From the NCBI GenBank assembly GCA_948567375.1, contig OX419761.1, positions 36,246,243 to 36,310,242 on the forward strand: a stretch of DNA of 64,000 nt. The letters run 5' to 3'. The translations under genes were made by a program, and so were the position numbers. Positions 20,244 through 54,817 of this stretch are shown in pieces. Every line of letters begins with the position of its first letter. Positions within the stretch are counted from its first letter, which is position 1. This stretch comes from Lunularia cruciata. Lineage: Eukaryota; Streptophyta; Marchantiopsida; Lunulariales; Lunulariaceae. A model generated the notes under the pieces. That model saw nothing but the letters and a program-made list of their open reading frames with translations. It searched no databases and was not told the DNA's origin.

Positions 20244-20657
20244 TGTCATGCCATTTGTAGTTTCACACCTAGATTGCTCGGACTTTGGAGTAGTAGTGTT
20301 GGTAGTCAAGAATAATTTGGTAGTTATTCATAGACTACTTGTTGACGGTCAAATTTTGTGTTCAGTGTATTGACTACATGGTGGAGCCCATTATCACTTA
20401 GTACCGTTCGTACCATCACTAGGACCGTTAGGGTTGGAGACCAGGGAGATACTTTTGAAGTGCAACTCTAGAGAACTCACTTCTTTGATGTTGAGCCTTC
20501 GAATTCTTGGTTATGGTGGATAGAGGTTGGCGGATTCTATTAACTAGAGTGGGTGTGGTTGACTTAATCAATGCTTAATTGTTGGAAAATTATGGAGTGC
20601 CAAATCAAGTACTGAACTGATTGAGTGTGATTTGAATTGTGTAAACAATTGATTACA
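20244..20657 (+). repeat. LTR sequence of methyltransferase element copy 1
   Basis: Begins TGTCATGCCATTTGTAG and runs through GACCGTTAGGGTT and CTCACTTCTTTGATGTTGAG to TTGATTACA. Homologous to 50808-50365 (reverse strand), 40827-40379 (reverse strand) and 54419-54817. Confidence 0.8.
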
Positions 20658-21892
20658 TTAGAGAAGTGAGGTCAGAGGGAAATTGTGTACAAGAACTGAG
20701 AGTGTTGGTGGTATCTCCAAGACTTGCTGATCGTTGGTAGCTCAATCGGAGTTCAGATTTTCCCTAATGTGTAGAAGCTCGTTTGATTGATATAGATTTG
20801 GCATTGAGGCAGATGGTGTGCGGAAATGTTGGCCAAATTTCAAGCAAAGGGAAGCAATTTTCAAGTGGTAGTTGTGATTTTGAGCTCAAGAGGTGAAAGC
20901 AAGACCAATTTGGTGAGAGTCGAGCTCAAAAAGTGAAATTGAAGGTGGAGTTGGGAACCCATCTCCGTGAATTACAAATTTGGAGAATCCCATCCGTCCA
21001 ATTTGGCTCAAATGAAGATTTAGTGGAGGATTTGGCAGTCAACCAACTTTAGGGATTTATGTCAGATTTTTGATAGAATTTATGTCAGATTTGGAGTTTG
21101 ATGGAGTTCAAAGTATTTGATGGAATTTACTTCAGATTTGGAGGATTTTTACCAAATTTGGAAAGGGTTTGAAGCTTTGTGCTATGAGAGGCTACGAAGG
21201 CCTAGAAAGCCAGCTTGTTTGCATGAGGCTAGCTAGTTTAGAGTAGATTTTGGTCATTGTTTGGCAAAATCTTCTCACCCTACTAGATTGTGTGCAATAG
21301 AGTTTGACCTCTAGATCTTTGGTTCCTAGACTGGTGCCCTAGCCAATTGGTCTACCCTCACTTGTTGTCCTTGTGACTGATCTACTATTATCTATACACT
21401 TGTAGCTTTGGCTAGGAGAGACAATTTGATCCCATTCTTGATGATCTTGATAGCTTAGGAAGTAAATAATTCATATTATATCAAATACAAAATGGTGGTA
21501 GAGTCAATCTAGTGCGGATTTATGAGATGGAGAGTTTTTATTTAGATTTCTTATGATTGGACCCCCTCCATTCTCTACTTCTTGTTGTGCATCATGTTTG
21601 TATGAGCCGCCTTGACTTTAGAGCATTGGTGCTTTGGTGTGCTCTTGGTAGTAAGGCTGGAGTGATGACCAATCAAACTACATATGTTTCTCTTTGGTGA
21701 GGTAAGAAGTGATGACATGTAGATAATGAGAGTGCATATTGTGATGGTAGGTTTCAGGTTGCACTTTCCACTGGTGTAGTTGTCATAGTTAGAGCTGCAT
21801 TAATGGGTGACGGTTGGTGGTGTTGGCACTTGGTGGTGAGTTACTTATGGTGGTTTTGATTACGGGTTGTAATTTCTAATTCCTTTGTCACG

Positions 21893-24100
21893 ATGGAGTT
21901 CTTTAGGGATTTTGGAGGAGATAGTGCTACAATACACAATGGGTTCACAATGATGCTCAATATCAACTTGTATCTCAAGTCCCAATGAGGGAGGAGATTG
22001 ACTCTAAGTTGGAGTTTGATATAGGGGCTGATTTAGTTGAGAGTGCACTTGGTGTGTACGCACCGTTGTTGTGAGACATGGACAAGATTTATGGGCCTCC
22101 AAAGGTCCCAAGTGTTACTCTGGTATAGTGTGAACCATTGAGTTGGATGATTTTATCCAAGAGTTTGATAGTTGGTGTGATCTATAATACCTATCTATGC
22201 ATGTATGTGTTATTGTGATATTTAGTTTGATATTATAAATACTTGAGAGATATTATTTATATAGAGATAAATATGGTTCTACATTAGTCATGATTAGCTA
22301 AATTTAGTCATAGCTAAAATAGAGGCCTTACTTTAGAGGAAGTAGAAAAGATGAACACCACTATTTTGGATTCTAGTGTACTGACTTGGTATTATTCCTA
22401 AGTGTTTGGCTTTGAGGAAAGAGTTGAGAACTCTTGGACCCACATACCCTTTCTTTTGGATTCTTCTATAGTCCAAAGATAGCCCATGTGAAGGAATCCT
22501 TGACTTAGTGGTTGGGTCAAGATAAGACCATATGCTTAGGAAAATATTCCCATGAGCATGGATATTCCTTTAGCTTTTTGATTTTATTTGACTTTTAGAC
22601 TAGTAACTTGAGTTACTCCAATAATTAGTAACTTTGGTACATAACTATTTCACAAGTATATAAACAAGGTGTGAGGAGGTACTCATCATCCTTTCATTTG
22701 CAACTATTTCTCTCTCATCGAGTTCTCTAGTGAGCAATCTTGAATCTTGGAGTTTTTGCCTGGGAAGAGTATGATGGAGTTGGGGTTCTTTGCCATCTTA
22801 GTCCATAATGCACTACCATAATAGCCATTAGAAGGTCATTCTGAGTGAGAGACCAACCGGCTCACATATCTACAATAGATACAGAACCCAACTTTGCTCA
22901 CACCCTTCATGGCATGGAAGGGTTTTTTCAACACTTGGAGGGAACGCTAATGGACAACTACCATGAGTTTAGGAGAGCTCATTTGGAGGAGATTAAGCTA
23001 TAGAGATAGTATTGGTCTCCAAACTATGTCTCCATCACTTCAGGTTCAATTTCCAAGGGTAGATCAATTGTACCCACAAGTTCTAGCTCTCATAGCATTG
23101 GTGGATCTCTTGGAGATGGTACTACTAAGAGTGGTACTACTATAAGAGGTGGTTTGGTATAAGGGTTTTAACCCCATGGTGGAGTTCTTCCAATGTTTGA
23201 GGCAGAACTACCAAGGAGTCTGGACTGACAAGCTAAGGAGCTTGTAGGAGTTCCAATGGAAGGTTGGAGAGAGCCTATGCAAGGCATACACTCACATGAG
23301 ATGGTTGATCAGTTTTATTCAAGGAGCTATTGAGGTTGAGGTAGTTCAATTTTGGTATGGGATACTAAACAAGGAGTTGCAACATAGAGTCAGTGATGCT
23401 ACATTGTTACAAGCTACTTTGACTACTTTGACAATGGTCTTTGGTTTGGTTGAGCGTATTGAGCTCAACATGGTGGAAGAGAGAGTGGTGACATCTAGAT
23501 TTGGTAGGGAGACCTCATCTACAACTTTTACTTCTTCTAGAATGCAATAGAATGCACCACTCCATGTTGGTTATTGAGGCCAAGGTAGATAGCCCACAGA
23601 GTGAGTGGAGGGCCTAGTGTAGCTAGACCCTTACTTTCATTTTTAGATCAATAGTAGCCAATGAATGGTGATGTTGCTTGTTGGACTTATGGTGGACCTC
23701 ACCACAAGAGAGAGTGCACTTAAGGCAGTGGACCTAATACCTCTGGTGCATCACAACTAGCATAAAGATAGTGTAAGCATTGCCATACATTTGGTCACAC
23801 CAATGACCAATGCTTTGACCTACACCAAAGTGGTAGAATTGCTATGACAAGTGGTAGAGAAGCTCCAAATCATAGAGGACAAGGTGGTAGAGGTGGTAGT
23901 AGAGGATCTACACATAGTAGGGGTGCATTATCTACCCTTACTTTTGATACAACCATGGCTACTTGGATTGAGCAATTGGAGCAAAGATTGGCTAGCATGG
24001 CAATAACTAAGAGGAGATCAAATTTGGGTGCCAAGGCTTCCACCTCATATGTGGGTGATAGAGACATCTTAGACTTCATGTGTGGAACAACATAGGTGGA
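21893..24100 (+). pseudogene. gag of methyltransferase element, copy 1
   Basis: Starts at ATG 21893 (MEFFRDFGGDSAT), the start that copy 2 has lost to ACG. A solo LTR (22183-22866) interrupts it after LDDFIQEFDSWCD. It resumes with HEFRRAHLEEIKL, the capsid-like LRSL-EFQWK region and two CCHC knuckles, one altered (CWTYGGPHHKREC) and one good (CKHCHTFGHTNDQC). Several stops, including a TAG after LEEIKL that is also present in copy 2. Confidence 0.75.
22183..22866 (+). repeat. Solo LTR (family C, 684 bp) inside gag
   Basis: Begins TATAATACC and ends GGCTCACA. Gag resumes directly after it at a short imperfect duplication (GATC/TATC). The same LTR family (690 bp, 48350-49039, reverse strand) sits at a different gag position in the sister copy, so the two insertions are independent. 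Confidence 0.8.
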
Positions 24101-24559
24101 TGCATCTATTGTAGTGACTTGGAATGAAGTACATGCTCCACAGCCTAGAGGAGCATCAATGGAGTTGGACCCACAAAGAGGAGAGGCTGGTAGACAAGTC
24201 AGACTTCCCTAGTCTTTTACACTCTTTGAGGCATTGTAGATGACGTCCTTGGCTCCTAGATGTCCTAGTGCAGGTGTGGTAGGTGGTGATGGGGTGCATG
24301 ATGGACTACCTACTAGTCAACCACTTACTACACACACACACACTAAGTCTAGCATGATCTTGGAGGCGGCTTAATTCATCATGAGGTTTCCATTATTTTT
24401 AGCTAGTGACATGTTTACATTGGGGTTGACCCAACCCCAATATTCAGGTTGGCTACTATGCTTTGTGAGAGTAGGGATGATGTGGTCCCTATTACTAGAG
24501 CAGAGGTGGTTGATGGTGGAGCTGACTTGGTTGAGGGGCATGGGATCTGCTCAATGACC

Positions 24560-25060
24560 AATGATTTATAGCAAGCAGTAGTGGCTAGATTGGAGGAGTT
24601 ACCAACTAGACCGGCCTTTGAGCAAGTCTGGTTTACACCTAGGGTTGTCCTATTGGATAACCACATGGGGAATTTTTTTAGTGGGAACTTTAGGAAAGGT
24701 CTATACACCATAGAGGATCTTATTAGACTTTGGTACACAACCCTTTATGTTGGGGAAGGCTGCAATTGTCAATCTAGAGTTGTGGAAGATAGATGTGGAG
24801 AGGTGTCCATTTTAGATCCAAACATCTCTAGAGATGGTTCTACACAATACATCACATATGAAGAGCTTGTTGTTTAGATTCAGCCTGGTCATCCAACTAA
24901 TAGCTTTGTGGTGAGAGCTCAGGCCATTGCAACCATAGATGAGTCATATGATGTGTTAGTTGGAAGAGAAGTGTTATACCATGGGTTTTAATATTAACTT
25001 TTAGGAAGAGATAGCCTCCTATAGACCAGGTTGGCAATCAGGTGAGGGACAAGTATGTTG
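24560..25060 (+). pseudogene. Retropepsin-like protease remnant, copy 1
   Basis: Shows LDFGTQP at about 24725, where retropepsins have D-S/T-G, then YITYEELVV and a SYDVLVG-like segment with a following YRPGWQSG. Same domain as at 45900-46260. Broken by stops. Confidence 0.65.
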
Positions 25061-25424
25061 CCTACCAATATGGTTCAATAGTGGCACTCTTGGCTCACTA
25101 TAGTCCAAGACTATAACAACATTAATTTCAACTTTCAATGATATTGTTACTTGGCCTGGTGATTTATTGGAGGGGAACACCTATGTAGTGGATACTCCAT
25201 AGGAGATCACTTGAATTTGAAGTACAAGTGAGATTGTTCCATCCACCTTAGATGTTCCTTTGTGGAGTTTAGAGGAGGCATTGTAGCAACATGCGGATCA
25301 ATTAGTGCAACAAGCTTGGAGTGGAGCCTTTGTATCACCATGAGACCAGTGTGAGGACGAGCCTCCAGAGACAATTACTTTGATAGCTGATTACCTTGAC
25401 ATTGCTTGGTAGTATCTAGTAGAG

Positions 25425-26390
25425 GGAGTATATCTATTGAAGTTGTTTGATGGGATTAACACTAGACTAGCTGCGGTACTATAGGCGGGTATATGAGTAT
25501 AGAGGTACTTGTATATGGAGAGAGATGAGACTACGACGTGAGTCTTTCTACATCATATGGCACGCTTGGCCTATCGGCATCCTAAGTTATTACCAATGTT
25601 AGCAGTCAAGCATTACCAAAAGACCTACCAATAGATATTTCCTTATTGGGGGTGTAGGATTTGGAAAGACATGGTCCCATCTCTCTGGTGATTTTTGGAT
25701 GGCCATGTTAAGGACATACATGGACTGGACAAGGTTTGGGTCTTTAGAATCTCCATTTTGGTGTGTGTTTTGGGAGATATTACATATATTACAACATCTT
25801 CAGGTTCATCAAACCATTTCTCTAGCTTACATTTTGGAGAACATTCCTTTGATGGGTGATTCTTGCACCCAGGTGGTGGTAAGTACACATTAGGTCCATT
25901 CTTGGATGGGACTTGCCGTGTTGTTAGATGTAGCCAAAGTGGGATCACATGCTCATCATCTTTGTCTTTGGTGGACAAACCTCTTACCCAAAGAGGTTCT
26001 ATAATACACTTATGATGGGATTTAATGACTAGACTACATCATTGTTGATGACATCTTGGATGTTGGGTGTCAATCTCAAATGGTGGTAGTGGCCGATAGG
26101 TCACCTATGGTAGTGGTAAACCTAGTTGGACAACCTAGAGCCGCTTTTCCCACACTTATGAGTTTCCTAGGCTCCCATGCTTTTTGAGAGGGAGGTCTTT
26201 GACTTGTTTGGGACTCATAGTTATAGTAGTTGGTGGACCAATGCCGACAAGAGAGAAGGGGCGACAATTTTTTGCACTAGTATTACCATTGTTCCAATAG
26301 TGTCAAAGACATCTATGCATTAGGTGTTAGGTCAGGCTATGGACTTGGATTTTGAGCCTTGGCTTAGCAAAGCAGCATAGGATGTGCTTG
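25425..26390 (+). pseudogene. C5-cytosine DNA methyltransferase remnant, copy 1
   Basis: Order matches copy 2: motif I as LKLFDGINTRLAAVL near 25440 (FDG resembles canonical FxG), then HPKLLPMLAVK, LERHGPISLVIFGWPC with the catalytic Pro-Cys near 25701-25706, YILENIPLMGDSC (motif VI ENI), HHLCLWWTNLL, and near 26270-26350 an LGQAMDLD-type end (motif X region). No frameshift where copy 2 has one (about 45265). Stops in GLGL* and after the WWTNLLP block are at the same sites as in copy 2. Not functional as it stands. Confidence 0.78.
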
Positions 26391-27739
26391 ATAGGCATCA
26401 CCACTCGAACACTTGTGAGCTTTGTGCCTATCAAGACGATTCAAGCATATGTTGGGGGCAATGGACCGAGTAGATGAGGTATTCTTGGGACACAACCAAT
26501 GGCTACTAGGGAGAGTGGTCTACTTGGATTACACCCTTGGTCTACTTGGGATGCAACTAGAGAATGTATGGAGCTTGCAGCCAGATTAGAGAGAGTTTTT
26601 CATACTGAGGTTGTGAGCTCTAGTGGTTGGGAGCATGACACTACTACTCCTAAGGGCCCAATGTAGCAGCTAGTCAATACGTCTTCCACTCTTATGATAG
26701 TTAAAGAGGATACTTGGGAGCCAAATCTTGGACCCAAGCTTATAGGAGAGGAAAGACGGAGGGTTTGGAGGTTCTTGAGGAGCTACATGAGTTGTCTTGC
26801 CTTCAATATGAAGGATTTGGGTACTCTAAAAGGACATGGTATTTAGATTGAGTTGACTAGCAATACACCAATTTTTTGATGTCCATATTGATATAGTGAT
26901 ATGGAGAGAGTATTGATTTAGAGCTGGAGTAGAGACCTTTTTGAAGCTAGTTTTGTGTAGATTTCACATGGAGAGTATGCATCAACTATAGTGATGCCAG
27001 CTATAACAATATGGAGTTTAGCAACGAAGTTAGTTAGGGCTAACAAAGTAGAAAATAAGACAAATTAGCTTAGAATATCCTAAAAGTATCTAGGAAGCTT
27101 CTTGGGAAGCTTCTCGACTAGCTTAGCTTGCACCTCAAGTAAGTAGCTTCTAGAAGGCTAGAAGCTTCCAACTAGCTTAGCTTGCAAGCCAAGTAGACGA
27201 CTTCTAGAAGGAAGCTTCTTGAGAAGCTTTTTGGTTAACTTGGCTTGCACTCCAAGAAAGTGGTTCAAGCAAACTTGTTGAGAAGTTTCTCAAGAGCCTT
27301 ATATGCTCCCTATAAATCCAGAGCCAAAGCTCATGCTAGGTATTTAGAGTTTACCCACATTCAAATGTCCAAATGTGATCTTCCATTCTACTATTTCTCT
27401 CCTTGGTCTTGGTCTTTTACTTTGATATTAGAGTAGAAATGGGATGGATGGATGGAATTTATGGACCACCAAATCCATTTCCACCAACTATTGGGATTTT
27501 TATGTCCAAGTACTACCCAAGTATCATTTCACACAATTCATCACCTCACGCTTTGGGTAGGATTTTATGCATGCAATCACCTTGTCTGAGGAACCCTTGA
27601 TACTTTTGGTTGTAATTTATGGAGAATGGTGGATGTGTTGCATCTATGTGTTAATAAATTAGATAAATTAGGAGTAGTGGGATAGAGTAGTAGCCATAGC
27701 GGCAATACTTAATGTTATCATTGCTGTGCAACAACAAGT

Positions 27740-39400: not shown

Positions 39401-40272
39401 GTGCGCCTTCAAGAAGCCCATGATTTACCTATCGTTGGTCACATGGGTGTGGACAAGACCTTGGGTACCCTACAACGTCAATGGTGGTGGCCCAACATGA
39501 CACGGGATGTACAAGAATTTGTCCAATTGTGTGAGAGCTGCCGACGTAACAAGGCTAGCAACCAGAAGCCGGGTGGACTCCTTCAACCACTCGCCGTTCC
39601 ATTAGCTCATTGGGAGCATGTAAGCTTGGATCTCATCACATCCTTGCCAAAGACAAAACAAGGACACACCGCCATTGTGGTGTTTGTGGATAAGCTTAGT
39701 AAGAAAATCCACTTGGCACCAACCTATGATACCGTGGATGCTCCAACCTTAGTGCAAATCTACTTCGACAATGTCTTCAAGCATCATGGACTGCCACGCG
39801 TACTCATCTCCGACCGTGATCCTTGCTTTACCGGGAAGTTTTGGCAAACACTCTTTCAGATACTCGACACCAAGCTTGCTTTGTCCACAACCTATCATCC
39901 TCAAACTGATGGACAAACCAAACGTGCAAATCGTACATTGGAGGATTTGTTGCGTGCCTTTGTCAATGTCCACCATACCAATTGGGATGAATGTCTTGCC
40001 GCTGCCGAATTTGCCTACAACAATTCCAAACAGGCAAGCACCGGATTCTCTCCTTTCTTTCTCAATTTTGGCCAAGATCCACTTGTTCAAGATTCTCTTC
40101 TTGCTCCCCTTCCATCTTAGGTTCCTCATACTTCCACATTCTTGACCACTATATCCCAATCTCTCCAACAAGCCAAGTCTCACCTCCTTGTTGCTCAGAA
40201 TCGCCAAAAACAATATGCTGACCACCATCGTTGAGATCTCATCTTTGAAGTCGGTGATAAAGTCATGCTATC
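39401..40272 (+). pseudogene. Chromovirus integrase (zinc finger and catalytic core)
   Basis: HHCC finger with GHMGVDKTLGTLQRQWW and CESCRRNK. D,D-35-E core: SLDLITSLPKTKQGHTAIVV, LISDRDPCFTGKFWQ, TDGQTKRANRTLEDLL. TAG at about 40118 after LAPLPS. The frame is cut after DKVMLS by the inserted element and resumes at 50809. Confidence 0.9.
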
Positions 40273-40935
40273 TGTCGTGTGTATATACATTGCTATACAA
40301 CATACATCGCTGTCAACATCATACACTATAGAAACACAACTCACACATAAGTCATACATAGACTCTAAAGTGCCACAATAATCAGATTGCTTACCACTCT
40401 CAACTCAACTCAACTCAGATCAGTACTTGATCTCTCACTCTATAAACTGCCAACAACTGGGCACTAATTACAGTCAAGCCACACCCACTCAAGCATAGAG
40501 AATCCAGGTGACGCTTGCCGGCCTCTGTCCACCATAGCCAGGAACTCGAAGGCTCAACATCAGAGAAGTGAGCTCTCTGGAGCTCACTTTGAAACTTTAC
40601 CCCCTGGACTCGAGCTAGCACTAAAACCCTAACGGTCCCACTGATGGCACACTCGACGGTGCAAACAGTGCAAAGTGATGGTGGGCCCCATCGTGAAGTC
40701 AGTACCCCAAACACAAAATCTATCCATCGAAAAGTAGCTTCTGAGAAACTGCTAGAATAACTCTAACTACTATCACTGGAACTCTAGTGTCCGAGCATCT
40801 AGATGCGGAACTACAAATGGTGTGACAGCTGTCATGCGTATATACATCGCTACACAACATACATCGCTGTCAACATCATATACTATAGAAACACAACTCA
40901 CACATAAGTCATACATAGACTCTAAAGTGCCACAA
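40273..40935 (-). repeat. LTR sequence at the 3' end of copy 2, with a duplicated 106-bp block
   Basis: In element orientation: block U (40935-40830, TTGTGGCAC to CATGACA), dinucleotide GC, the common LTR part (40827-40379), then U again (40378-40273, TTGTGGCAC to CACGACA). A purine tract CTAGGGGGTG lies just upstream, at 40949-40937. Confidence 0.8.
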
Positions 40936-41099
40936 TCACCCCCTAGCTGGCGGTTAGGTCCCTCTAACTCCAGATAGCCATCTACTCTAAGTATATAGTA
41001 TACCCTCTAATGGGCAAAGATCAGGAGGCCGGGTGCTATGGAGCCCCATCGTTAGTTGCCTGTTTGCAATCTATACCATATAAAGAATGAACTAGCTAT

Positions 41100-42400
41100 A
41101 GGTCAAGTACATCTAGGACATAACCACTATGCCTGAGGAACCACCGTGAGGGGAGGAGTCATACATGCCATATGCCATCCTCTCGAACAACTATCACACA
41201 CTAACATAGTAGCAGCTCCACCAAGAGAGCCACATAACATACACCTCAAGCCTGCACGTACAAGTGCCAAGCTTGGGTCCATAGTACCATCAATGTTTGG
41301 AAGGTGGCATGGCGCACAATTGCGCACATGATCCTTCCAAACAACACCATCACGTCCTTCTAACACAAGGACTCCAGATGGAAAAACCTCGTGCACTCTC
41401 AAGATAGTGCGGCCTGTAGAAACATCAAGTGTCGTCGGTGCTGTCTGCTGTAGATATACATAGTCGCTTGGATGAAATTGATGGATCGAGGGTCTATAAC
41501 CTCCTCCTCGAATGGTAGCATAGCATAAAGTATCTCTATGCTGAGCAATCGCCAAGTTCTCAAAGGCCATCGGCATCACTCTCCGAAAGATCTCTGCCCA
41601 TTGAGAACATGCGCTCATCCATACATCGGGGTCATCCAAGTCCAAAACTACAGTAGCATCTCGACGAATGGCTACACGTAAATCTGGATCTTGTCCATAG
41701 AGTAGAAAGTATGGAGAGAAGGATGCTAAGGAGGCTTGCTGGCTGAACCGATAGCCCATGGCCAACCAAGGTAACTGGAGATCCCAATCTCCCAAGTGGC
41801 CTCTCTGCAAACCATACTTTTGCAATCCTCTCTTCACCGTCTGAACCACTCTCTCTGCTAAGCCATCTACCTCAGGGTGATCTCGAGATGTAGTACGATG
41901 ATTAATCAAAGCCTTGTCACACAAGACCTGAAACTCACCCAAGAACTATGTACCCTGATCAGTCAAAACCTCAACTGGTGCACCAAAATGACTAAGAACT
42001 TGATCTAGGAACGAGTAAGCTATCCCTTCACTAGACTTGTTAGGAAGTGCCACCAACTCAATCCACTTGGAGAAGTGCTCCACCATCACCAAAACATACC
42101 GATGATGTCTCACAGTCAGCGGTAAAGGTCCAGCAAAGTCCAAACTCCAACGATAACCCAATCCCATGATAGGTAATGGGTGTAACTGTGGTGTAGGAGC
42201 ATTGAATGATGCTCTAACTCGATCACAAACCACACATCTGGCAACAAACTGCTGTACCTCGGTCTGCATACCGTGCCACCAATAATGACTCTAGAGTAAG
42301 CTATACGTACGCTTTACTCCAAAATGTCCTAGCTCCTCATAAGCATGACGGACCAACTGTGGTCTCTGTGATGGAAGTGGTACTACTTGCACTCTACTAT
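41100..42400 (-). pseudogene. Integrase with C-terminal PHD finger, copy 2
   Basis: Zinc-binding HAYEELGHFGVKRT and CVVCDRVRA. Core YRWSLDFAGPLPLTVRHHRY, VEVLTDQGT, DHPEVDGLAERVVQTVKRGL (D, D, E). After the tail (VWKDHVRNCAPCHLPN) comes a C4HC3 PHD finger at 41243-41109: CMLC, CDSC, HMAC, CPRC, ending three codons later at TGA. A TAG at 41129-41127 sits inside the finger; the third copy has CAA there. The PHD takes the place the chromodomain has in chromoviruses. PHD fingers commonly read histone H3 tails; a targeting role is inference. Confidence 0.87.
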
Positions 42401-44040
42401 CCTCCCATACACGCAAAAGGTGTCTACCCTCCAATCTGAACTGTCTGGCCCGCTGAAGAACACGGTCTCTCTCCTTGGCCCCAACTGTGCCACCCACAAC
42501 ACCAGTGCAAAGATAGTCCATCACTAAGACATCATCATGAATGTCTTGCTGAACTGTACCAATATCTTCACTCTCTGGATATATGACCTCAATAACTCCT
42601 CTTGTATGCGCTGAGAGAGATACCACCAAAGCCTTAAAAAATATACATAGAAAGGCAGATGCATGCCAACCTGACACCATCTCCTCATCTGTCTCACCAT
42701 GCCAACGTGCTTCGGTCTGATCCTGCTGGCTGGGACATGGATTTCTACTCAACCCATCTGCATCACGGTTCACCACTCCAGGTCTATGAACAACCGTGAA
42801 ATCATACTCCTATAAAATCAGAGCCCATCGTGCAAGCTTCCCTGAAAGCTTGTCGGACTCCATCAACCACTTCAGCGGCTGATGATCAGTGATGAGAGTG
42901 AAGGGGTTACCAAATAGGTAACATTGGAAATGTGCTATTGCCCAAATTGCTGCCAAGCACTCTCCCTCATATGAACTATACTTCGCCTCCACTAAATTGT
43001 TGGAGCGACTAGCATAGGCCACCACAAACTCCTTCTCCTCATCATCATGCTGGGTGAGCACCGCTCCAAGCCCCAACATACTCCAATCAGTGTGAACCTG
43101 AAATGGTCGTCCCCTGATTAGTCTCCTCAAAATAGGAGCAAATGTCAACCTCTCCTTGAGCTCTACAAAAGCTCTCTCCTGCTCATCTTCCCAACACCAC
43201 TCCTGTGTAAGCTTGGTCAGCTTTGTCAAGGCCTTGGCAATGGCACTAAATCCTCTAACATAGCGGCGATAGAAGTTTGCCAACCCAAGGAATGCTTGCA
43301 CTCTGCTCACATCCATAGGCTGAGGAATACATGCAATAGCCTCCACCTTGGTCTGCTGAACACCAAGTCCTCCGGGGTAGATAGTGTGACCCAAATACTC
43401 AACCTGCTCGTGGAAGAACCTACACTTCCCAGGATGTAATTTGAGTCCATGAGATCTCAACTTCTCAAACACCTCCAACAATTGTCTCTCATGCTCCTCC
43501 ACAGTAGTGCTATAAACCAAAATGTCATCAATATAGCACCGAGCAAAATCCAATCCAGCTAGGATCCTATCCATGACCCTCTGGAACTCAGCAGGAGCGT
43601 TCTTCAACCCAAATAGTAAGAACCTCTACTGATATAACACATCCTTGCCGTGAGGATCAATAGCCCAAAATGCTGTCTTGGACTTATTTTCCTCCCTAAT
43701 CGGCAACTGATGATATCCCGCTCGAAGATCCAAAGTACTGAAGACTTTTGCATGCCCAATTGCATCAAAACTCTCCTCCGGTGTAGGCATGGCATACCAA
43801 TCAGCCTTGGTCTGTCGGTTGATAGGACGGTAATCTCCACATATCCGCCTATCTGTATAGTTGCCATGCATATCCTTCTTGGTTGGCATCACTGTCGCTG
43901 ATGCATACTCTCCATGTGAAATCTCCACCAAACCAGCCTCAAAAATGTCACTACTCCGGCTCTGAATCAATGTCCTCTCCATATCACTATATCAATAAGG
44001 ATGTCTGAAAACTGGTGTGTCGCTAGTCAGCTCAATCCGT
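42290..44040 (-). pseudogene. Reverse transcriptase and RNase H of copy 2
   Basis: Fingers/palm: GLVEISHGEYASATVMPTKK, RRICGDYRPINRQTKADWYA, FSTLDLRAGYHQLPI, then after a TAG (43626) FGLKNAPAEFQRVMD and ARCYIDDILVYS with the catalytic Asp pair near 43520. Thumb GLANFYRRYVRGFSAIAKAL. RNase H: VHTDWSMLGLGAVLTQHDDE, YSSYEGECLAAIWAI, LITDHQPLKWLM. Then HRPGVVNRDADGLSR. Confidence 0.9.
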
Positions 44041-44519
44041 ATACCAGGTCCCTTCAGAGCACCTAAATCCTTCATACTGAAGGCAAAACAACTTGTGTGA
44101 CTCCTCAAGAACCTCCAAACCCTCCGTCTTTCCTCTCTAGTAAGCTTGGGTCCAAGATCTGGCTCCCAAGTATCCTTTGTAACTGTAGTAGGAGTGGAAG
44201 ACGTACTGACTGACTACTACATTGGGCCCTTGGGAGCAATAGTGTCATGCTCCCGACCACTAGAGGTCCCAACCTCTGTGTGAAAAACTCCCTCCACTCT
44301 GGCTGCAAGCTCCACACGTCCTCTGGCTGCATCCCATGTGGACCAAGGGTGTAATCCAAGTAGCCCACGCTCACCTGGATGGACTCCAAGTAGACCACTC
44401 TCCTAGTAGCTATTGGATGTGTCCTAAGAATACCATGTCCACTCGGTCCATCGCCCCCAGCATGTGCCTGAATCGTCTCGATAGGCACAGGGCTCACAAG
44501 TGTCCGAGTGGTGATGCAT

Positions 44520-45510
44520 ATCAAGCGCATCCTACGCTGTTCTGCCAAGCCAAGGCTCACAATCCAGGTCAAATAGTTCAGGTCCATAGCCTGACCTAAC
44601 ACCTGATGCCTAGATGCCTCTGACACTGTTGGAACAGTGGTAATACCGGTGCAAAAACCCATCGCCCGCTCTCTCTCATCAGCGTTGGGTTCCACCAACT
44701 GCTGTAACTGTGAGTCCCAAACAAGTCCAGGTCCTCTCTCTCGAAAAGCATGAGAGCCTGGGAAACTCATGAGTGTGGGAAATGCAGCTCTAGGCTGTCC
44801 AACTAGGTTCACCACTGCCATAGGTGACCTATCAGCCACTACCACTGTCTGAGACTGACGCCTAACATCCAAGATATCATCAACAAGAATGTGGTCTAGT
44901 CGCTGAATCCCATCATAACTACGCTATAGAACCTCTCTGGGTAAGAGGTTCGTCCACCAAAGACAAAGATGATGAGCCCGTGATCCCACTCTTGTTGCAT
45001 CTAACAATACAGAAGGTCCCATCCAAGAATGGACCTGATGTGTACTTGCCACCACTCTAGTGCAAGAATCACCCATCAAAGGAGCATTCTCCAAAAGGTA
45101 AGCTGGAGAAACAGATTGATGAACCTGGAGATGTCGTAGTATCCGTAACATCTCCCAAAACACACCAGAACGAGGATCCTAAAGACCCAAACCGTGGCCC
45201 GCACGTGTATGTCCCTGACATGGCCATCCAGAAATCACCAAGTGAATAGGCCCATGTCTCTCTAGATCATGCGCCCCAGTAATGAAATGTCTCTTGGTAG
45301 GGCCTTCTGGTAACCTTTGACTGCTGACATCGGTAATAACTCCGGATACCGATAGGCCAAGTGCGCCACATGATGTAGAGAGACTCGCCTAGCAGTCTCA
45401 TCTCTCTCTACATAAAAGTACCTCTGTACTCGGATACCCGCCTGTAACACCGCAGCTAGTCCGGTGCTGATCCCACCAAACAACTCCAATAGGCATATCC
45501 CCTCTATTGG
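44520..45510 (-). pseudogene. C5-cytosine DNA methyltransferase domain, DNMT3-like arrangement
   Basis: Captured host-type enzyme that would transfer a methyl group from SAM to cytosine. Motif I LLELFGGISTGLAAVLQAGI (45500-45440) with VQRYFYVERDETARR, like the IATG...VDRYIASE block of DNMT3. Motif IV HLVISGWPCQGHTRAG with the catalytic Pro-Cys (45230-45213). Motif VI YLLENAPLMGDS (45100-45070). Motif VIII-like LCLWWTNLLP, comparable to FWGNLP. C-terminal ERERAMGF (44678-44655), then HQVLGQAMDLNYLTWIVSL in the position of DNMT3 RQRLLGRSWSVPVI. A one-base deletion near 45265 and TAG codons at 45181-45179 and 44926-44924 break it. It sits between protease and reverse transcriptase, so it would be made as part of the polyprotein. 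Confidence 0.85.
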
Positions 45511-45899
45511 ATACTGCCAAGCAATGAGTGTGGTATCCAGAGGTGTCAAAGCAATTGCCTCTGGAGGCTCATCTTCACACTCATCTCCTGATGGTATGAA
45601 GGCTCCACTCCAAGCCTGCTTCACCAATTGATCTGCATGCTGCTGCAATGCCTCCTCTGAATTCCACAATGGAACATCCAAGGTGGATGGAACAATCCCA
45701 CTCGTACTCCAAAGCCGAGTGATCTCTTGTGGTACTGGAGTATCCTCTGCATAGGCGTTCCCCTCCAACAAGTCACTAGGCCAAGTAACTGCACCGCTGA
45801 AAGCTAAAACTGATGCTGCCATGGTCCTGGACTGTAGTGAGCCAAGACTGCCACTACCAAAGCGTACTGGTAGGCGACATACCCGTCCCTCACCAGACT

Positions 45900-46983
45900 G
45901 CCAACCAGGTCTATAAGAGGCTGTCTCCTCCCAATAGTCAATGCTGAAACCCATGGGGTATAACACTGCTCCCCCAACTAGCACATCATATGACTCAGCT
46001 ATCGTTGCAATAGCCTGAGCTCTCACCACCAAGCTATCAGTCGGATGACCAGGCTGAACCTGGACAACAAGCTCTCCACGTGTGATGTAATGTGTCAAAC
46101 CACCACCTAGAGATGTCTAGATCTGAAATGGACACCACTCCACATCGGTCTTCAGTAACTCCAGACCGACAACTACAGCCTTCCCCAACATAAGGGGCTG
46201 CGCACCAAAGTCTAACAAGACTCTCTGTGGTGTATAGACCTTCCATGAAGGTCCCACCAAACAAAAAATCCCCCTCTGGTTATCCAATAGGACAACACCA
46301 GGTGTAAACCGTGCTCTCTCAAAGGCCGGTCTAGCTGGCAACTCCTCCAGTCTAGCCGCTGCTGCCTGCCATAAACCATTGGTCGCTGAATGGATCCCAT
46401 GCTCCTCAACCAAGTCGGCTCCACTACCAACCACCTCTACTCTAGTAGTAGCAACTACACCATCCCTACTCTCACACAACGTGGCAGCCAACCAGAATAC
46501 TGGGGCTGGGTCAACTCCCAATGTAAACATGTCACTGGTTGAAAACAAAGGATGCCGCATAATCAGCTGAGCCGCCCCCAACATCATGCTAGACTCAGTC
46601 TGTGTAGTAGCAGGTGGCTGACTAGCAGGTAGTCCATCATGTACTCCATCACCACCTACCACACCTGCACTGGGACGTCTAGGAACCATGGATGTCGTCT
46701 GCAATGCCTCAGATAGCGTGAAGGACTGGGGAAGTCTGACCTGTCTCCCAACCTCTCCTCTTTGTGGGTCCAACTCCACTGATGCTCCTCTAGGCTCTGG
46801 AGCACGTATTGCACTCCTAGTCACTGCTGCAGATGCATCCACCTGTGCTGCTCCGCACATGAAGTCCAAAGCATCTCTATCACCAACATATGAGGTGGAA
46901 GCCTCAGCACCCAAATCTGATCTCCTCTGAGCAATAGCCATACTAGCCAATCTCTGCTCCAACTGCTCAATCCGAGTAGCCAT
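45900..46983 (-). pseudogene. Gag-pol linker and retropepsin of copy 2
   Basis: Opens with MATRIEQLEQRLASMAI, a short coiled-coil-like segment, then a Pro/Ser-rich linker. The aspartic protease follows: VLLDFGAQPLMLGKAVVV (about 46230-46180), ending SYDVLVGGAVLYPMGFSIDY and YRPGWQSGEGR. The catalytic D-S/T-G reads DFG in both this copy and copy 1, as a TCT to TTT change would give. One TAG at 46117-46119. Confidence 0.78.
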
Positions 46984-47029
46984 AGCTGTGTCAGAAGTAA
47001 GAGCAGGTACTGCACCCCTACTAGGTGTA

Positions 47030-49082
47030 GGGGTGTAGTACCTGCTCTTCTACCACCACCTCTACCACCTCGTCCTCCATGAACTGGAGCTCCTCTACTA
47101 CCTACCGTAGCAGCCCTACCACTCCGTAACTCCAGGTGTAGGTCAAAACACCGGTCACTAGTGTGACCAAATTTGTGGCAATGCTCACACTGCCCCTGTG
47201 CTGGCTATGATGCACTAGAGGTATCAGGTCCACTGCCCTAAGTACACTCTCTCCTATGGTGAGGTCCACCACAAGTCCAACAAGCAACACCACCACTCAA
47301 TGGCTGCTGCTGACTCAAAAATGAGGGTAAGGGTCTAACTCTACTAGGCCCTCCACTCGCTCCATAGGATCTGGGCTGTCCACCCTGTCCTTGAAAATCA
47401 ACTAGGCATGGTGCACTCTGCTGCACTCTAGAAGAAGTCACAGCCGTGGATGAGATCTCCCTACCAAATCCAAATGTCACCACTCTCTCCTCCACCATGT
47501 TGAGCTCAATATGCTTAGCCAAACCAAAGACTACTGCCAAAGTAGGCAAAGTAGCCTGCAACAACGTAGCATCATGAACTCTACGTTGCAACTCCTTGGA
47601 CTGCCTGGGCCTCAGTAACTCCCTGAGTGAAACTGATCAGCTGCCTCATGCGAGTGTATGCCTCACGTAGGCTCTCTCCAGCCTTCCACTTGAACTCCTG
47701 CAAGCTCCTCAGCTTGTCAGTCCGCACTCCTTGGTAGTTCTGCCTCAAACATAGGAAGAACTCCACCATGGGGTTAAACCCCGGTACCACACCACCTCCT
47801 GTAGCGGTACCTCCACTTGTAGTAGCACTATCTCCAGCTAGTGCACCTTCACTAGCTCCACCAACACTACTCAAGCTAGAACTTGTAGGTACAACCGATC
47901 TACTCTTGGCCACCGAGCCTGAAGTGATGGAGAGATAATGTGGAGACCAATACTGTCTCTATAACTCGATCTCCTCCAAATGAGCTCTCCTGAACTCATG
48001 GTAGTCATCCATCGGCGGACCCTCCAAGTGCTAAAACAACCTCTTCCATGCCATGAAAGGTGTGAACAAAGTCGGGTTCCGCATCTGCTGCAGATCACAC
48101 CAACTATCAAACTCCTTGATGAAGTCATCCAACTCAATGGTACCCACTATACCAGAGTAACGCCTAGGGCTTTTGGAGGCCCCATAAATCTCGTCCATGT
48201 TCCACAACAACGGTGCGGACACACCAAGTGCACTCCCAACTGAATCAGCTCTTGTGTTGAACTCCAACTTAGAGTCAATCTCCTCCCTCATTGGAGACTT
48301 GAGATATAGGCTAATACCGAGCACCACTCCGAGTAAACCCACTCCGTATTGTGAGCCGGCCTGTCTCTCACTTAGGATGAACCTCTGATGGCTATTATGG
48401 TAGCACACCATGGACTAAGAAGGCAAGGAACCCAAACTCCATCATACTCCTCCAAGGCTAACACTCCAAGACTCAAGACATTGCTCACTAGAGAACTCAA
48501 TGAGAGAGATAGTTGCAAATGAAAGGATGATGAGTACCTCCTCACTCCTTGTTTATATACTTGTGAAATAGTTACGTACCAAAGTTACTAATTACCGTAG
48601 TAACTCAAGTTACTAGACTAAAAGTCAAGTAAAGTCAAAAAGTAGAAAGGAATATCCATTCATATGGGCATATTCCCCTAAGCATGTGGTCCTATCTTGA
48701 CCCAACCACTAAGTCAAGGATTCCTTCACATGGGCTATCCTTGGACTAAAGAAGAATCCAAAACAAAAAGGCTTGCGGGCCCAAGAGTTCTCAACTCTTT
48801 CCTCAAAGCCAAACACCTAGGAATAATACCAAGTCAACACACTAAAATCCAAAATAGTGGTGCTCATCTTTTCTACTTCCTCTAAAGTAAGGTCCCCTCT
48901 ATCTTAGCTATGACTAACTTTAGCTAACCATGACTAATATAGAACCATCCTTTATCTCTATATAAATAATATCTCTTAAGTACTTGTAATACCAAGCTAA
49001 ATATCACAATACCACACACATGCACAATTGGGTGTTATAGTACTGCAGGGCTAACTCCTCTGGAATCTCCAAAAAACTCCGT
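47030..49082 (-). pseudogene. gag of copy 2
   Basis: The start codon at 49082-49080 is ACG where copy 1 has ATG. After the solo LTR it reads YLKSPMREEIDSKLEF, ELDDFIKEFDSWCDLQQM, FMAWKRLF, then TAG at 48033-48031 (sense in copy 1). A second TAG after LEEIEL is shared with copy 1. Capsid region LRSLQEFKWKAGESLREAYT; knuckles CWTCGGPHHRREC and CEHCHKFGHTSDRC near 47270 and 47180; then an RGGRGGGR-rich basic tail. The PMREEIDSKLEF region lies before a polar linker. Nucleocapsid and capsid functions are inferred from the knuckles. Confidence 0.8.
48350..49039 (-). repeat. Solo LTR (family C, 690 bp) inside gag of copy 2
   Basis: Plus-strand TGTGAGCCGG to GGGTGTTATA, between near-identical GTAT (48346-48349) and GTAC (49040-49043). 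The open frame starting at 48411 begins inside this LTR, so its first 20 or so residues are not gag. Confidence 0.85.
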
Positions 49083-49470
49083 CGTGACAAAGTAACCACA
49101 ACAGCAAACCCGAACCACCAACTGCAACCGCAAGTCGCAACCGCAAGTACCCCACCAAGTGCCAACACCATCACGTGCCAACACCACCCACTAATGTAAC
49201 TCTAACCGAGATAACTACACTAGAGGAAAGAGCAACATGTAACCTGCCATCATAACACGCACTCTCAGGGTCTGCAAGTCATCACTTCCTGCCTCACCGG
49301 AGAGAAACAAAAGTAGTTTGACTGGTCATCACTCTAGCCTCACCATCGAGAGCACACCAGAGCACCAACGCTCAAAAGTCAGGGCACCTCACACAAACGT
49401 GGTGCACAAACAAGAAGCATGGAATCACAAGAAATCTAAACAAAAACCCTCCATCTCATAACACAACACG

Positions 49471-49488
49471 GGACTGACTCTGCCACCA
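49471..49488 (-). other. Candidate primer-binding site
   Basis: TGGTGGCAGAGTCAGTCC starts with the TGG typical of primer sites. It lies about 1.3 kb from the element start and 0.4 kb before gag, and is conserved in copy 1 at 21493-21510. I could not assign the tRNA. Confidence 0.4.
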
Positions 49489-50364
49489 TTTGGCATTTGA
49501 CATAAGAGAAGTTTGTATCTAAGTCCTAAGCTACCAGGATCACCAAGAATGGGATCAAATTGCCTCTCCTAGCCAAAGCTACACGTGTATAGATAACGGT
49601 GGCACAGTCACTAGGACAACAAGTGAGGGTGGACCAGTTGGATAGGGCACCAATCTAGGAACAAGAGATCTAGGGGTCAAACCCTATTGCACACAATCTA
49701 GCTAGAAAGGCAGATTTTGCCAACCAATGACCAAGATCTACTCTAAACTAGCTAGCCTCACGCCAGCAAGCTGGCTTGCTGGCCCTTCTGGCCCTTCTAG
49801 GCCTTCGTAGCCTCTCATAGCCCACAACCCTATGCCTCGAACAGCCAAATGAGGCCTTTCTTGTTGCCACTTCGAACCTCCTCCAAAATTGGCGAAACTT
49901 CCCCAAATCTGCGAAAGTCCTCCAAACTAGCGAAACTCCTCCAAATCTGGCCCAAAATCTGACATAAACCCTAAAGATGGCTGTCCGCCAAATCCCCCGC
50001 TAACTTTCCACTCGAGCCAAATTGACAAAACAGGTTTTTCCAAATCACAATTTCATGAGAAGAGCTTCCCAACTCCACCTTCAATTTGACTTTTTGAGCC
50101 CAACTCGCACCAAATTGGTCCTGCCTTCACCTCTTGAGCTCAAAATCACAACACTGCTTGAAAATTGCTCATTCTTTGCTCGAAATTTGGCCAGCACTTC
50201 CGCATACCGTCCGCCTAACTGCCAAATCTGCATCACTTGAACGAGCTTCTGCACACTAGGGAAACACAGAACTTGAATCGAGCTACCACGATCCACCGAG
50301 CTTGGAGATACCACCAACACTCACAGTTCCTGCACCCGATTTCCCCCTGACTTCACTTCTCTGA

Positions 50365-50808
50365 TGTAATCAAATTGCTTACCACTCTCAACTCAACTCA
50401 ACTCAGATCAAAACTTGATCTCTCACTCTATAAATTGCCAACAACTGGGCAATGATTACATTTAAGCCACACCCACTCAAGCATAGAGAATCCAGGTGAT
50501 GCTCGCTGGCCTCTGTCCACCATAGCCAGGAACTCGAAGGCTCAACATCAGAGAAGTGAGCTCTCTGGAGCTCACTTTGAAACTATTCCCCCTAGACTCA
50601 AGCTAGCACTGAAACCCTAACGGTCCCGCTGATGGCACACTTGACGGTGCAAATGGTGCAAAGTGATGGTGGGCCCCACCATGAAGTTAGTACCCCAAAT
50701 ACAAAATCTATCCGTCGGAAAGTAGTCTCTGAGTAGAATAACTCTATCTACTATCACTGGAACTCCAGTGTCCGAGCATCTAGATGCGGAACTACAAATG
50801 GTGTGACA
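50365..50808 (-). repeat. LTR sequence at the 5' end of copy 2
   Basis: In element orientation TGTCACACC to TTTGATTACA. Homologous to 40827-40379 but lacks the 106-bp block found on both sides of that copy. The 5' LTR may extend further, to about 49490, just before a primer-site-like TGGTGGCAGAGTCAGTCC. Confidence 0.75.
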
Positions 50809-51248
50809 TATCCTCTAGTAACCTCCCTCTCCCACTTGATACCCAAGTTTGTAAACTTGCTCCTAATTGGATAGGACCCTTTGATATCACCCAAATTGTC
50901 TCTCCTGTTGCTTATTGTCTTGCCTTGCCTTGTCACATGCGTATCCATCTTGGGTTTCATATTCCCAAGTTGAAACCCTTTGTTCCTAACCCCTCTTCCT
51001 TTTCCTCTCGGGTCCAACCTCCTCCTCTTCCTGTCCCTATCAATGATCATGAGGAGTACGAAGTTGATCATATCCTTGCACGTCGCTATATTCAACAAGG
51101 CCGTTGCCAACATACGGAGTACAAGGTCCTTTGGAAAGGGTATCCCCTTCATGATGCCACATGGGAACTTCTTTCTCACCTCCAGAATGCACAGATGGCC
51201 ATCAAGGAATTTGAAGCTTCACTGGCGACAAGGACGTCACCAACTAGC
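50809..51248 (+). pseudogene. Chromovirus integrase tail and chromodomain
   Basis: Resumes after the insertion with SSSNLPLPLDTQVCKLAPN, then GPFDITQIVSPVAY and a chromodomain (51050-51215) with EEYEVDHILARRYIQQG, EYKVLWKGYPLHDATW and AQMAIKEFEAS. The open frame continues into the LTR. The chromodomain is the histone-reading module of chromoviruses. Confidence 0.9.
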
Positions 51249-51260
51249 GGTGGGGGAATA
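51249..51260 (+). other. Polypurine tract
   Basis: GGTGGGGGAATA directly before the TGTAACAATATGG start of the 3' LTR; primes plus-strand synthesis in this family. Confidence 0.8.
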
Positions 51261-51684
51261 TGTAACAATATGGAGTTTAGTGACAAAGTTGGTCGGGCTT
51301 ACAAAGTAGAGAATAAGACAAAATAGCCTAGAATATTCTAGAAGCATCTAAGAAGCTTCTTGGGAAGCTTCCCAACTAGTTAACTTGCGCCCTAAGTAGG
51401 TAGCTTCTAGAAGGAAGCTTCTAGAAGCTTCTAACTAGCTTAGCTTGCACGCCAAGTAGGCAGCTTCTAGAAGGAAGCTTCTTGAGAAGCTTCCTAGTTA
51501 ACTTGGCTTGCATTCCAAGAAAGCGGCTCAAGGAAGCTTCTTGAAGAAGCTTCAAGGGTCTTGTATGCTACCTATAAATACCAAGGCCGAAGCTCATGCT
51601 AGGCATTCGTAGTTTTCACTCATTCAAGTGTCCTAATGTGAGTTTCCATTCTCCTATTTCTCTCCTCGGTTTTGGTCTTTTACA
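51261..51684 (+). repeat. 3' LTR of plus-strand chromovirus
   Basis: Same length as the 5' LTR and very similar. Heat-shock-element clusters at 51413-51433 and 51532-51556; TATA box at 51573. Confidence 0.93.
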
Positions 51685-53004: not shown

Positions 53005-53049
53005 CCCTTTCACCTCCTAATGCTCTTACACTTCTTAATGCTCCTACAC

Positions 53050-54135
53050 CGTAGTTACACCCATTACCTATCATGGGGTTGGATTACCATTGAAGTTTGG
53101 ACTTTTTTGGACCTTTACCATTAATAGTGAGACATCATTGGTATGTTTTGGTGATGGTAGAGCACTTCTCCAAGTGAATTGAGTTGGTGTCACTTTCTGA
53201 TAAATCCAGTGAAGGGACAACTTATTTGTTCTTGAATTGGGTTCTTAGTCATTTTGGTGCATCAATTGAGGTTTTGACTGATTGGGGTACAAATTTCTTG
53301 GGAGAATTTCAAGTCTTGTGTGACAAGGCTTTGATTGATCATCATACTACCTCCCAAGATCACCCTAAGGTAGATGCCTTAGTAGAGAGAGTGGTTCTGA
53401 TAGTGAAGAGAGGATTGCGGAAGTATGGTTTGCAGAGAGTCCACTTGGGAGATTGGGATCTTTAGTTACCATGGTTGGCCATGGGCTATTGGTTCAGCTG
53501 GAAAGTCTCCTTAGCATCCTTCTCTCCTTACTTTCTACTCTATGGATGAGATCTAAATTAACTACAACCATTTGTTGAGATGCTATTGTAGTGTTGGACT
53601 TGGATGATCTAGATGTATGGATGAGCATATGTTCTCAACAAGTAGAGATCTTTTGGAGAGTGATGCCAATGGTCTTTGAGAACTTAGCAATTGCTCAACA
53701 TAAGGATACCTTAAGCTATGCTACCATTCAAGGGGGAGGTTCAGACCCTCAATTTGTTGATTTCATCCAAGTGACTATGTATATCTACAACAAACAACAC
53801 AAACAATACTTGATGTTTCTATAGGCTGTACAATCTTGAGAGTGCATGAGGTTTTGCCATCTGGAGTCCTTGTGTTGGAAGGACATGATAGTGTTGTTTG
53901 GAAGGATCATGTGTGCAATTGTGCACCATGCCAACTCCCAAACATTGATGGTATTATGAACCCAAGCTTGGTACTTGTACGTGTAGGCTTGCGGTGTATG
54001 GTATGTGGCTCTTTTGATACAACTGTCACTATGTTAGTGTATGATAGCTGTTTGAGAGGATGACATAAGGCATGTATGACTCCTCCCCTCATGGTGATTC
54101 CTCAAGGACAATGGTTATGTCCTAGATGTACTTGA
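53050..54135 (+). pseudogene. Integrase and PHD finger, copy 3
   Basis: SLDFFGPLPLIVRHHWYVLV, VLTDWGTNFLGEFQVLCDKA and DHPKVDALVERVV give the D,D-35-E core. The PHD finger (53993-54132) reads CMVCGSF, then YDSC (first Cys of the second pair lost), HKAC and QWLCPRCT, ending in TGA at 54133-54135. The end of the finger is intact here, unlike copy 2. Several other stops. Confidence 0.82.
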
Positions 54136-54305
54136 CATATAGCTAGTTCATCCTTTATATGATATAGATTGCAGACATGTAACTAACGATGGAGCTGGAT
54201 AGCACCTGATCTCTTGATCTTTTGCCCACCATAAGGTATACCATGTATTTGGAGTAGATGGCTATCTGGAGTTAGAGGGACCTAATTGCCAACTAGGGGG
54301 AAAAT

Positions 54306-54817
54306 TGTGGCACTTTAGAGTCCATGTATGATTTATGTGTGAGTTGTGCTTCTATAGTGTGTGATGTTGACAAAAATTTATCCTGTGTAGTGATGTATAT
54401 ATGCATGATATCAATCACACCATTTGTAGCATCACACCTAGATTGCTTGGACTCTAGAGTAGTAGTGTTGGTAATCAAGAGTATTTCAGTAGTTATTCAT
54501 AGACTACTTGTTGACGGTCAGATTTCATGTTTGGAGTACTAATTACATGGTGGGGCCCATTGTCACTTAGCATTGTTTGCACCGTTGGATGTGCTGTCAG
54601 CGGGACCATTAGGGTTGGAGACCAAGGGGTATAATTTTGAAGTGCACCTCCAAAGAGCTCACTTCTTTGATGTTGAGCTTTGAGTTCTTGGCTATGGTGG
54701 ACAGAGGCCGATGAGTGTCACTTGGATTCTCTTAGCTAGAGTGGGTGTGGCTTGACTATAATTAGTGCATAGTTGTTGGTAAATTATTGAGTGACAGATC
54801 AAGTATTGATTTGAGCA
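54306..54817 (+). repeat. 3' LTR of copy 3
   Basis: AACTAGGGGGAAAAT (54291-54305) is a good polypurine tract, followed by TGTGGCACTTTAGAG, the 106-bp block and the common LTR part, ending TTGAGCA. This places the LTR start at TGTGGCAC. Confidence 0.8.

Follow-up and report, generated by a model that had tools for sequence, protein, structure and literature searches.

Retroelements that carry a DNMT3-type cytosine methyltransferase have been reported from the alga Klebsormidium nitens and from Symbiodinium. KnitGypsy-Dnmt3 of K. nitens has an unrearranged DNMT3-type enzyme within a Gypsy Pol frame, and its repeats are called DIRS-like in a figure legend, together with Gypsy domains (PMC5890265). 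SymbioDIRS-Dnmt3 of Symbiodinium is also a retroelement with a DNMT3-type enzyme, which is CG-active in yeast, but it is a DIRS element rather than one with a Gypsy pol, and the acquisitions are treated as independent (PMC5890265). A literature search, with most subscription journals outside its scope, did not turn up any bryophyte retrotransposon reported to encode a DNMT. Here we describe an element in the liverwort Lunularia cruciata that lies at 40273..50808 on the minus strand of the window, by which we mean the whole 64,000-nucleotide stretch analysed (assembly GCA_948567375.1, contig OX419761.1, forward-strand positions 36,246,243 to 36,310,242). Taken jointly with the mechanism proposed below, we consider it likely that the element is a retrotransposon of the Ty3/Gypsy type and belongs to a green-plant family equipped with a DNMT3-type methyltransferase and a PHD finger.

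The first-pass annotation of this DNA had named an LTR (long terminal repeat) retrotransposon with its own methyltransferase and a terminal PHD finger. All of the domains it named were found within one element and in the order claimed, well above what chance would give, with relatives at E values down to 3.5e-91. Along the minus strand, a gag region (47376..48222; Retrotrans_gag match weak, 0.033) is followed by a zinc-knuckle region (47076..47285) with one CX2CX4HX4C motif and one near match, both recognised by eye, and by an aspartic protease with an LD-x-GA motif (45862..46266); Asp_protease_2 exceeds its Pfam cut-off in the protein relative P0081. The methyltransferase (44513..45531) comes next, inside the coding region, and is separated by an in-frame UAG (44217..44219) from the reverse transcriptase (RT; 43362..43945), RNase H (42792..43196), an integrase with H2C2 zinc-binding and rve core (41847..42416) and the C-terminal region of the integrase (41299..41846). 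The polyprotein ends behind the integrase in a C4HC3 PHD finger (41106..41258) at its extreme C terminus. Pfam matched RVT_1, RT_RNaseH, RT_RNaseH_2, Integrase_H2C2, rve and PHD (3.5e-7) on pieces of the window, and the Gypsy-type order of RT, RNase H and rve integrase is present in the window and in other copies. The window copy itself is dead.

Decay bears directly on how the methyltransferase is recognised. In the window copy it is frameshifted, with motif I (LFGGISTG) in one frame and GWPCQGH, LLENAP, WWTN and LGQAMDLN in another, so that none of its three pieces reached PF00145 in Pfam at an E value of 0.1. Two less decayed copies of the family scored 28.9 and 28.2 bits against a curated cut-off of 22, and five of the six protein relatives scanned also reached it; the sixth, Marchantia P0010, has a PHD finger. 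A profile search for the enzyme thus fails on the window's own pieces and succeeds in less decayed family members. Motifs I, IV, VI, VIII, IX and X stand in that order, and DNMT3A/B were the best structural and profile matches, ahead of DNMT2; the structure was predicted from a 57-row alignment, an 8-row model (predicted local distance difference test score, pLDDT, 41.8) being left unused. The catalytic motifs and the predicted fold together indicate an enzyme of the DNMT3 type. In DRM methyltransferases the motif order is rearranged, and the DRM class was ruled out by the unrearranged order found here and by the ranking of PDB matches. The same contrast between DRM and unrearranged DNMT3 is drawn in PMC5890265.

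The methyltransferase also belongs to the family. Among 21 copies, consisting of the window copy and 20 fetched through methyltransferase matches (about nine chosen for long frames, the others spread down the ranking), the full order from gag to PHD was seen in 13, one of which (L037) has a large deletion from the methyltransferase into the RT; the remaining eight miss at least one part in the fetched stretch. A set selected by RT avoids the bias of this choice. Twelve places were taken by eye down the table of matches to the RT start, and in the 500 bases lying about 0.6-1.1 kb upstream the methyltransferase was present in all 12 (92.4-99.6% identity), with PCQ, EN and SRAHRLRLWW. The window moreover contains a second, older copy of the family (copy 2; 20244..27001, plus strand) with a B repeat, gag, protease, methyltransferase (25400-26399, 81.7% identity), TAG CAGCTA and the start of the RT. 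This copy emerged also from a comparison of the element with the remainder of the window. The failure of the window's pieces at PF00145 speaks for a methyltransferase that was inserted separately, or for a match that arose by chance in decayed sequence, but the enzyme keeps its position and order across other copies, the old copy and other species, its ratio of nonsynonymous to synonymous substitution (dN/dS, or omega) is below 1, and its presence in every RT-selected copy refutes the idea, which we regard as extremely improbable.

Between the fetched copy L021 and copy 2, with codons containing gaps or copy 2 stops removed, dN/dS was 0.39 for the methyltransferase (bootstrap 0.26-0.56, 311 codons), 0.36 for gag and 0.31 for the protease. 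This holds although copy 2 has become a pseudogene: its methyltransferase contains 18 stops, its gag 10 and its protease 4. Variation among young copies was also counted, after dropping copies that span less than 80% of a domain and columns in which three or more letters occur. Omega was 0.45 for all shared variants and 0.61 for singletons in the methyltransferase, 0.34 and 0.64 in gag, and 0.23 and 0.72 in the RT-RNase H region. By these measures, selection has maintained the methyltransferase with about the strength seen for gag and the protease.

The genome searched comprised 566 Mb in 74 contigs. An 84-residue piece of the methyltransferase gave 150 scored matches out of 7,626 first-look candidates, at 88-95% identity with the window itself set aside, and the 111-residue start of the RT frame gave 150 scored out of 12,374 first-look candidates, at 97-100% identity. 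The copy number is at least the 150 scored, with thousands of first-look candidates. These counts and identities point to an abundant and recently active family, one that by its sequences has been massively amplified in recent time. The L. cruciata genome is described as 580-Mb and about twice the size of that of Marchantia through bursts of Ty3/Gypsy elements (PMC9985172).

The coding region is divided by the UAG into two open reading frames (ORFs). ORF1 encodes gag, protease and methyltransferase, measures 1448 residues from stop to stop in L021 and 1431 in L022, and ends at TAG; ORF2 continues in the same frame. The TAG was present in all 34 copies that have the junction (out of 36 distinct copies including the window; L016 and L037, which have no junction, and four repeat fetches of the same loci were dropped), a count that overstates the evidence since young copies share the TAG partly by recent descent. 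A type I readthrough signal consists of UAG followed by CAR YYA (PMC11166343). The hexamer following the TAG fitted CARYYA in 33 of the 34 (CAGCCA in 28, CAGTCA in 3, CAGTTA and CAGCTA in 1 each), where the chance of a fit for a random hexamer with equal base use is 1 in 512. The single exception is the first copy in the window, with TAGTCA; copy 2, with TAG CAGCTA, has the signal. Of the 150 matches to the RT start, 16 lay in an open frame of exactly 1037 residues and none in a frame longer than 1043, so ORF1 is fused to ORF2 in none of them. Because the methyltransferase lies upstream of the UAG, the enzyme would be made with Gag rather than with the scarcer Pol. Several relatives (P0159, P0162, P0173 and P0193) run from methyltransferase through RT in one protein as deposited, which makes the UAG one strategy within the family.

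The PHD finger is the last domain, ending in CPRCT and a stop, and scored 45.3 bits in one less decayed copy. Pfam found no chromodomain behind the integrase in the window copy or in a further copy, the PHD finger standing there instead. The nearest solved chains include CHD4, KMT2D, a KMT2C homologue, PHF12, DPF3, KDM5B, PHF21A and ATXR5, and several of these read unmodified H3K4. The first-pass annotation had envisaged a land-plant family combining this domain order with a PHD reader. Relatives in Marchantia, Calypogeia, Riccia and Sphagnum bear out the family, but the PHD finger is not special to land plants: among the best 120 of 1374 proteins matched by the RT-integrase frame, it is also present in the K. 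nitens relative P0216 and in many metagenomic relatives.

The ends of the element do not form a matched LTR pair, and in this respect the term LTR, in its ordinary sense, was wrong. On the minus strand the window copy begins with a terminal repeat B (50367..50808), which passes into the leader with no adjoining A. At the other end, a purine-rich run recognised by eye as a candidate polypurine tract (40936..40950) directly precedes an inner repeat A (40830..40935), which a GC linker (40828-40829) joins to the 3' B (40379..40827) through the palindromic GACA-GC-TGTC; a second A (40273..40378, 95.3% identical to the inner A) forms the 3' terminus. The whole is bordered by a 4-bp target duplication, TATC, at 40269..40272 and 50809..50812. 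Ends were examined in ten fetched copies and the window, no 3' end being found for L024 and L028. In eight of the nine copies with both sides seen (L021, L023, L025, L026, L027, L029, L035 and the window), the layout was B-leader at the 5' end and A-gc-B-A at the 3' end, with two bases lost at the inner junction of L025. Each of these eight has a 4-bp duplication (acaa, aagc, cttt, gctt, aatt, tgtt, atgt and gata), at which the element ends as TGTC...GACA. Identity between the two B repeats within a single copy is 96.5-98.9% for the seven regular copies that were fetched and 91.8% for the window copy.

The odd 3' end is not a private rearrangement of the window copy, which the seven further regular copies exclude, nor is it an ordinary LTR pair, as the full LTR does not occur at both ends in the eight regular copies. 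An LTR pair whose 5' member lost A by deletion or through an assembly fault might still be imagined, because repeat B alone resembles such a pair and because the ninth copy, L022, has B-A on both sides. In L022, a 5' B-A unit is followed by the same flank as on the 3' side, the repetition that a local duplication gives, and its cctt duplication was excluded from the set. The arrangement recurs at different loci in eight copies with 4-bp duplications, and the K. nitens element is reported with DIRS-like repeats (PMC5890265), so we hold an altered LTR pair to be very improbable. Stretches fetched to either side of L022 (L043 and L044) show a B-A unit bordered by cctt with the same flank on both sides, a local duplication or a solo-type remnant.

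In the model that we prefer for the split repeats, ordinary reverse transcription would give long A-gc-B repeats, and the integrated form would correspond to a circle with tandem repeats that has been opened at the inner palindrome, GACA-GC-TGTC. An rve (DDE) integrase and a short target duplication are both present. No Pfam match to a tyrosine recombinase was obtained in ORF1, ORF2 or the PHD piece of L021, nor in nine further ORFs of L021 and its flanks, frames under 100-130 residues lying outside the scan. By eye, no tRNA-complementary primer binding site was recognised beside the 5' B.

Relatives were sought by three protein searches, the two with the methyltransferase scoring only the roughly 8,000 candidates that shared most words. 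The methyltransferase region, read in one frame with stops as X, gave 43 protein matches, the best at an E value of 3.5e-91, and the sources that were named include Marchantia polymorpha, Calypogeia fissa and Sphagnum; a methyltransferase profile matched 188, the best 120 of which add Riccia sorocarpa. The RT-integrase frame of a sister copy matched 1374 proteins at an E value of 1e-10 or better. Among the best 120 of these, the nearest named relatives are liverworts (for example Riccia P0155, 83% identical over 56% of the query), and K. nitens P0193 and Closterium P0206 and P0215 have methyltransferase, RT, RNase H and integrase in one protein. P0205, P0213 and P0229 have a homologous methyltransferase between RNase H and integrase and retain the C-terminal PHD finger, so the methyltransferase may have been captured more than once or have changed its position.

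Trees of the methyltransferase and of the RT, each with 15 relatives, agree on a liverwort clade (support 100/100 and 96/95, respectively), a Closterium clade (100/99 and 100/100) and a clade with the order RNase H-methyltransferase-integrase (99/98 in both). P0159 is placed differently in the two, weakly in that of the methyltransferase. In a 32-row RT tree, a 100/100 branch separates eight chromovirus-like rows from a group of 24, made up of 21 rows with methyltransferase or PHD and three without, where a missing label may mean a partial protein or a methyltransferase in a separate upstream ORF. P0193 falls in this group and is homologous in both pol and methyltransferase; the methyltransferase tree, which includes no cellular DNMT3, has weak support (45/87) near it. 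P0240, a pol protein of the chlorophyte Tetrabaena socialis, falls in the same 24-row group, and the lineage may thus be older than the streptophytes or have spread by horizontal transfer. P0146, an RT-integrase-PHD frame marked complete, comes from a transcriptome assembly (EukProt), and a close relative is thus transcribed in some species. P0076 is filed under a bacterial metagenome-assembled genome (Obscuribacterales) and is probably contamination by plant or algal DNA, and a scan of viral contigs gave one locus at 32% identity.

We propose that these parts work together as follows. Most ribosomes would stop at the UAG and release Gag-protease-methyltransferase, so packing the enzyme into particles at Gag-like amounts, and occasional readthrough would add RT-RNase H-integrase-PHD. 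Within the particle, the methyltransferase would methylate cytosines of the double-stranded cDNA before integration, and the new copy would enter the genome already marked, passing as self or being shielded from responses to foreign DNA. The integrase-PHD would dock on histone H3 tails and insert the DNA. The ends used would fall within the long repeat, at its GACA-GC-TGTC junction, and the insertion would be circularly permuted. This would point to an intermediate that is a circle or a tandem repeat, as in DIRS/PAT elements, with the cutting and joining done by a DDE integrase instead. We offer the full proposal tentatively, as a possibility to be taken seriously rather than one we expect to hold in every part: that a green-plant lineage reaching from algae to liverworts and Sphagnum uses a circular or tandem intermediate and DDE-permuted insertion, makes DNMT3 at Gag dosage through a leaky UAG, and methylates its copies before they enter PHD-selected chromatin.

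Several points weigh against this reading, beyond the irregular ends of L022 and the shared descent behind the TAG count. Motif IV is PCQ, as opposed to PCN in DNMT3A/B. Among young copies, omega in the integrase is higher for shared variants (0.59) than for singletons (0.46), the counts of shared variants are low, and the shared transversions in the methyltransferase (2 nonsynonymous, 5 synonymous) are too few by themselves. The nearest enzyme tested, that of Klebsormidium, gave no methylation in yeast, a result its authors call inconclusive (PMC5890265). C-to-T changes in the methyltransferase piece reach 8.5% at CG, 6.4% at CHG and 1.2% at CHH, where other changes are at about 0.5-1.5%; the copies have accordingly been methylated at CG and CHG, but this decay would be equally expected from ordinary host methylation.

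Such heavy CG and CHG decay, of the kind seen in well-silenced elements, also fits an enzyme that serves the host or tempers the element by helping to silence sister copies, limiting transposition and keeping the host fit, and a slowing of transposition is among the ideas raised in PMC5890265. The recent amplification seen in the RT-start matches means that any brake applied by the methyltransferase is weak, and a host-serving role seems unlikely. We judge it more doubtful still that RNA is the enzyme's substrate, or that the protein has no enzymatic role and serves the particle as a structural or nucleic-acid-binding component. RNA methylation was raised for a LINE enzyme of Symbiodinium (PMC5890265), and the silence of the Klebsormidium enzyme in yeast would agree with such a role, but the best matches are the DNA enzymes DNMT3A/B, ahead of DNMT2, and PCQ, EN and HR-x-R are kept in all 12 RT-selected copies. 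If methylation before integration and permuted insertion both hold, the family would couple reverse transcription with integration in a third way, distinct from that of LTR elements and from that of DIRS elements, and would have both a writer and a reader built in.

The window copy has itself landed in a retroelement. A chromovirus on the plus strand (38018-40272 and 50809-51326) has its pol frame interrupted by the element, with its integrase at 39398-40120 and its chromodomain within the reading frame at 50784-51326 (Pfam). An integrase, PHD finger and A and B repeats at 53037..54815 (plus strand) are probably the 3' part of copy 2, which is about 18% diverged and apparently split by some 26 kb of later insertions, including the chromovirus that holds the first copy. 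L042, beside L021, has a Pfam match to SH3_retrovirus at 278-550 (plus strand), so that L021 likewise adjoins another retroelement.

In a liverwort genome of 566 Mb the family has multiplied; it is young, many of its frames are intact, and related copies exist in Marchantia, which is tractable as a model. Why a transposon should write its own silencing mark thereby becomes directly testable, and the permuted ends, bordered by target duplications, raise the question of how an intermediate that is circular or tandemly repeated would be processed by a DDE integrase.

Among known systems, PAT/Ngaro-type DIRS elements have the same kind of split direct repeats, A1-B1-A2-B2 (PMC4157794), but use a tyrosine recombinase, whereas the element here has an rve integrase and 4-bp duplications, with no recombinase in the ORFs tested. 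Chromoviruses, such as the outer element of the window, likewise have a pol of the Ty3/Gypsy type whose integrase is followed by a chromatin-reading domain; theirs is a chromodomain in place of the PHD finger, and their RT lies across the 100/100 branch. REM1 of Chlamydomonas is a green-plant Gypsy element of unusual structure, in which we know of no DNMT3. It differs in being a chromovirus that has a chromodomain and whose integrase is truncated and lies in reverse frame (PMC2774666). P0193 (KFL_009030040) matches ORF2 with 46% identity and 99% coverage and is probably the KnitGypsy-Dnmt3 element itself. Compared with that element, the host here is a land plant, 4-bp target duplications are documented, and the C terminus bears a PHD finger, a word absent from the main text of PMC5890265; the methyltransferase here lies upstream of a UAG in frame with ORF2, whereas P0193 as deposited runs through. 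By its sequence, the Lunularia element is of the KnitGypsy-Dnmt3 kind, in a land-plant variant that has a PHD finger, a conserved UAG-CARYYA after the methyltransferase and 4-bp duplications at split repeats, and an arrangement reported in an alga now extends to land plants.

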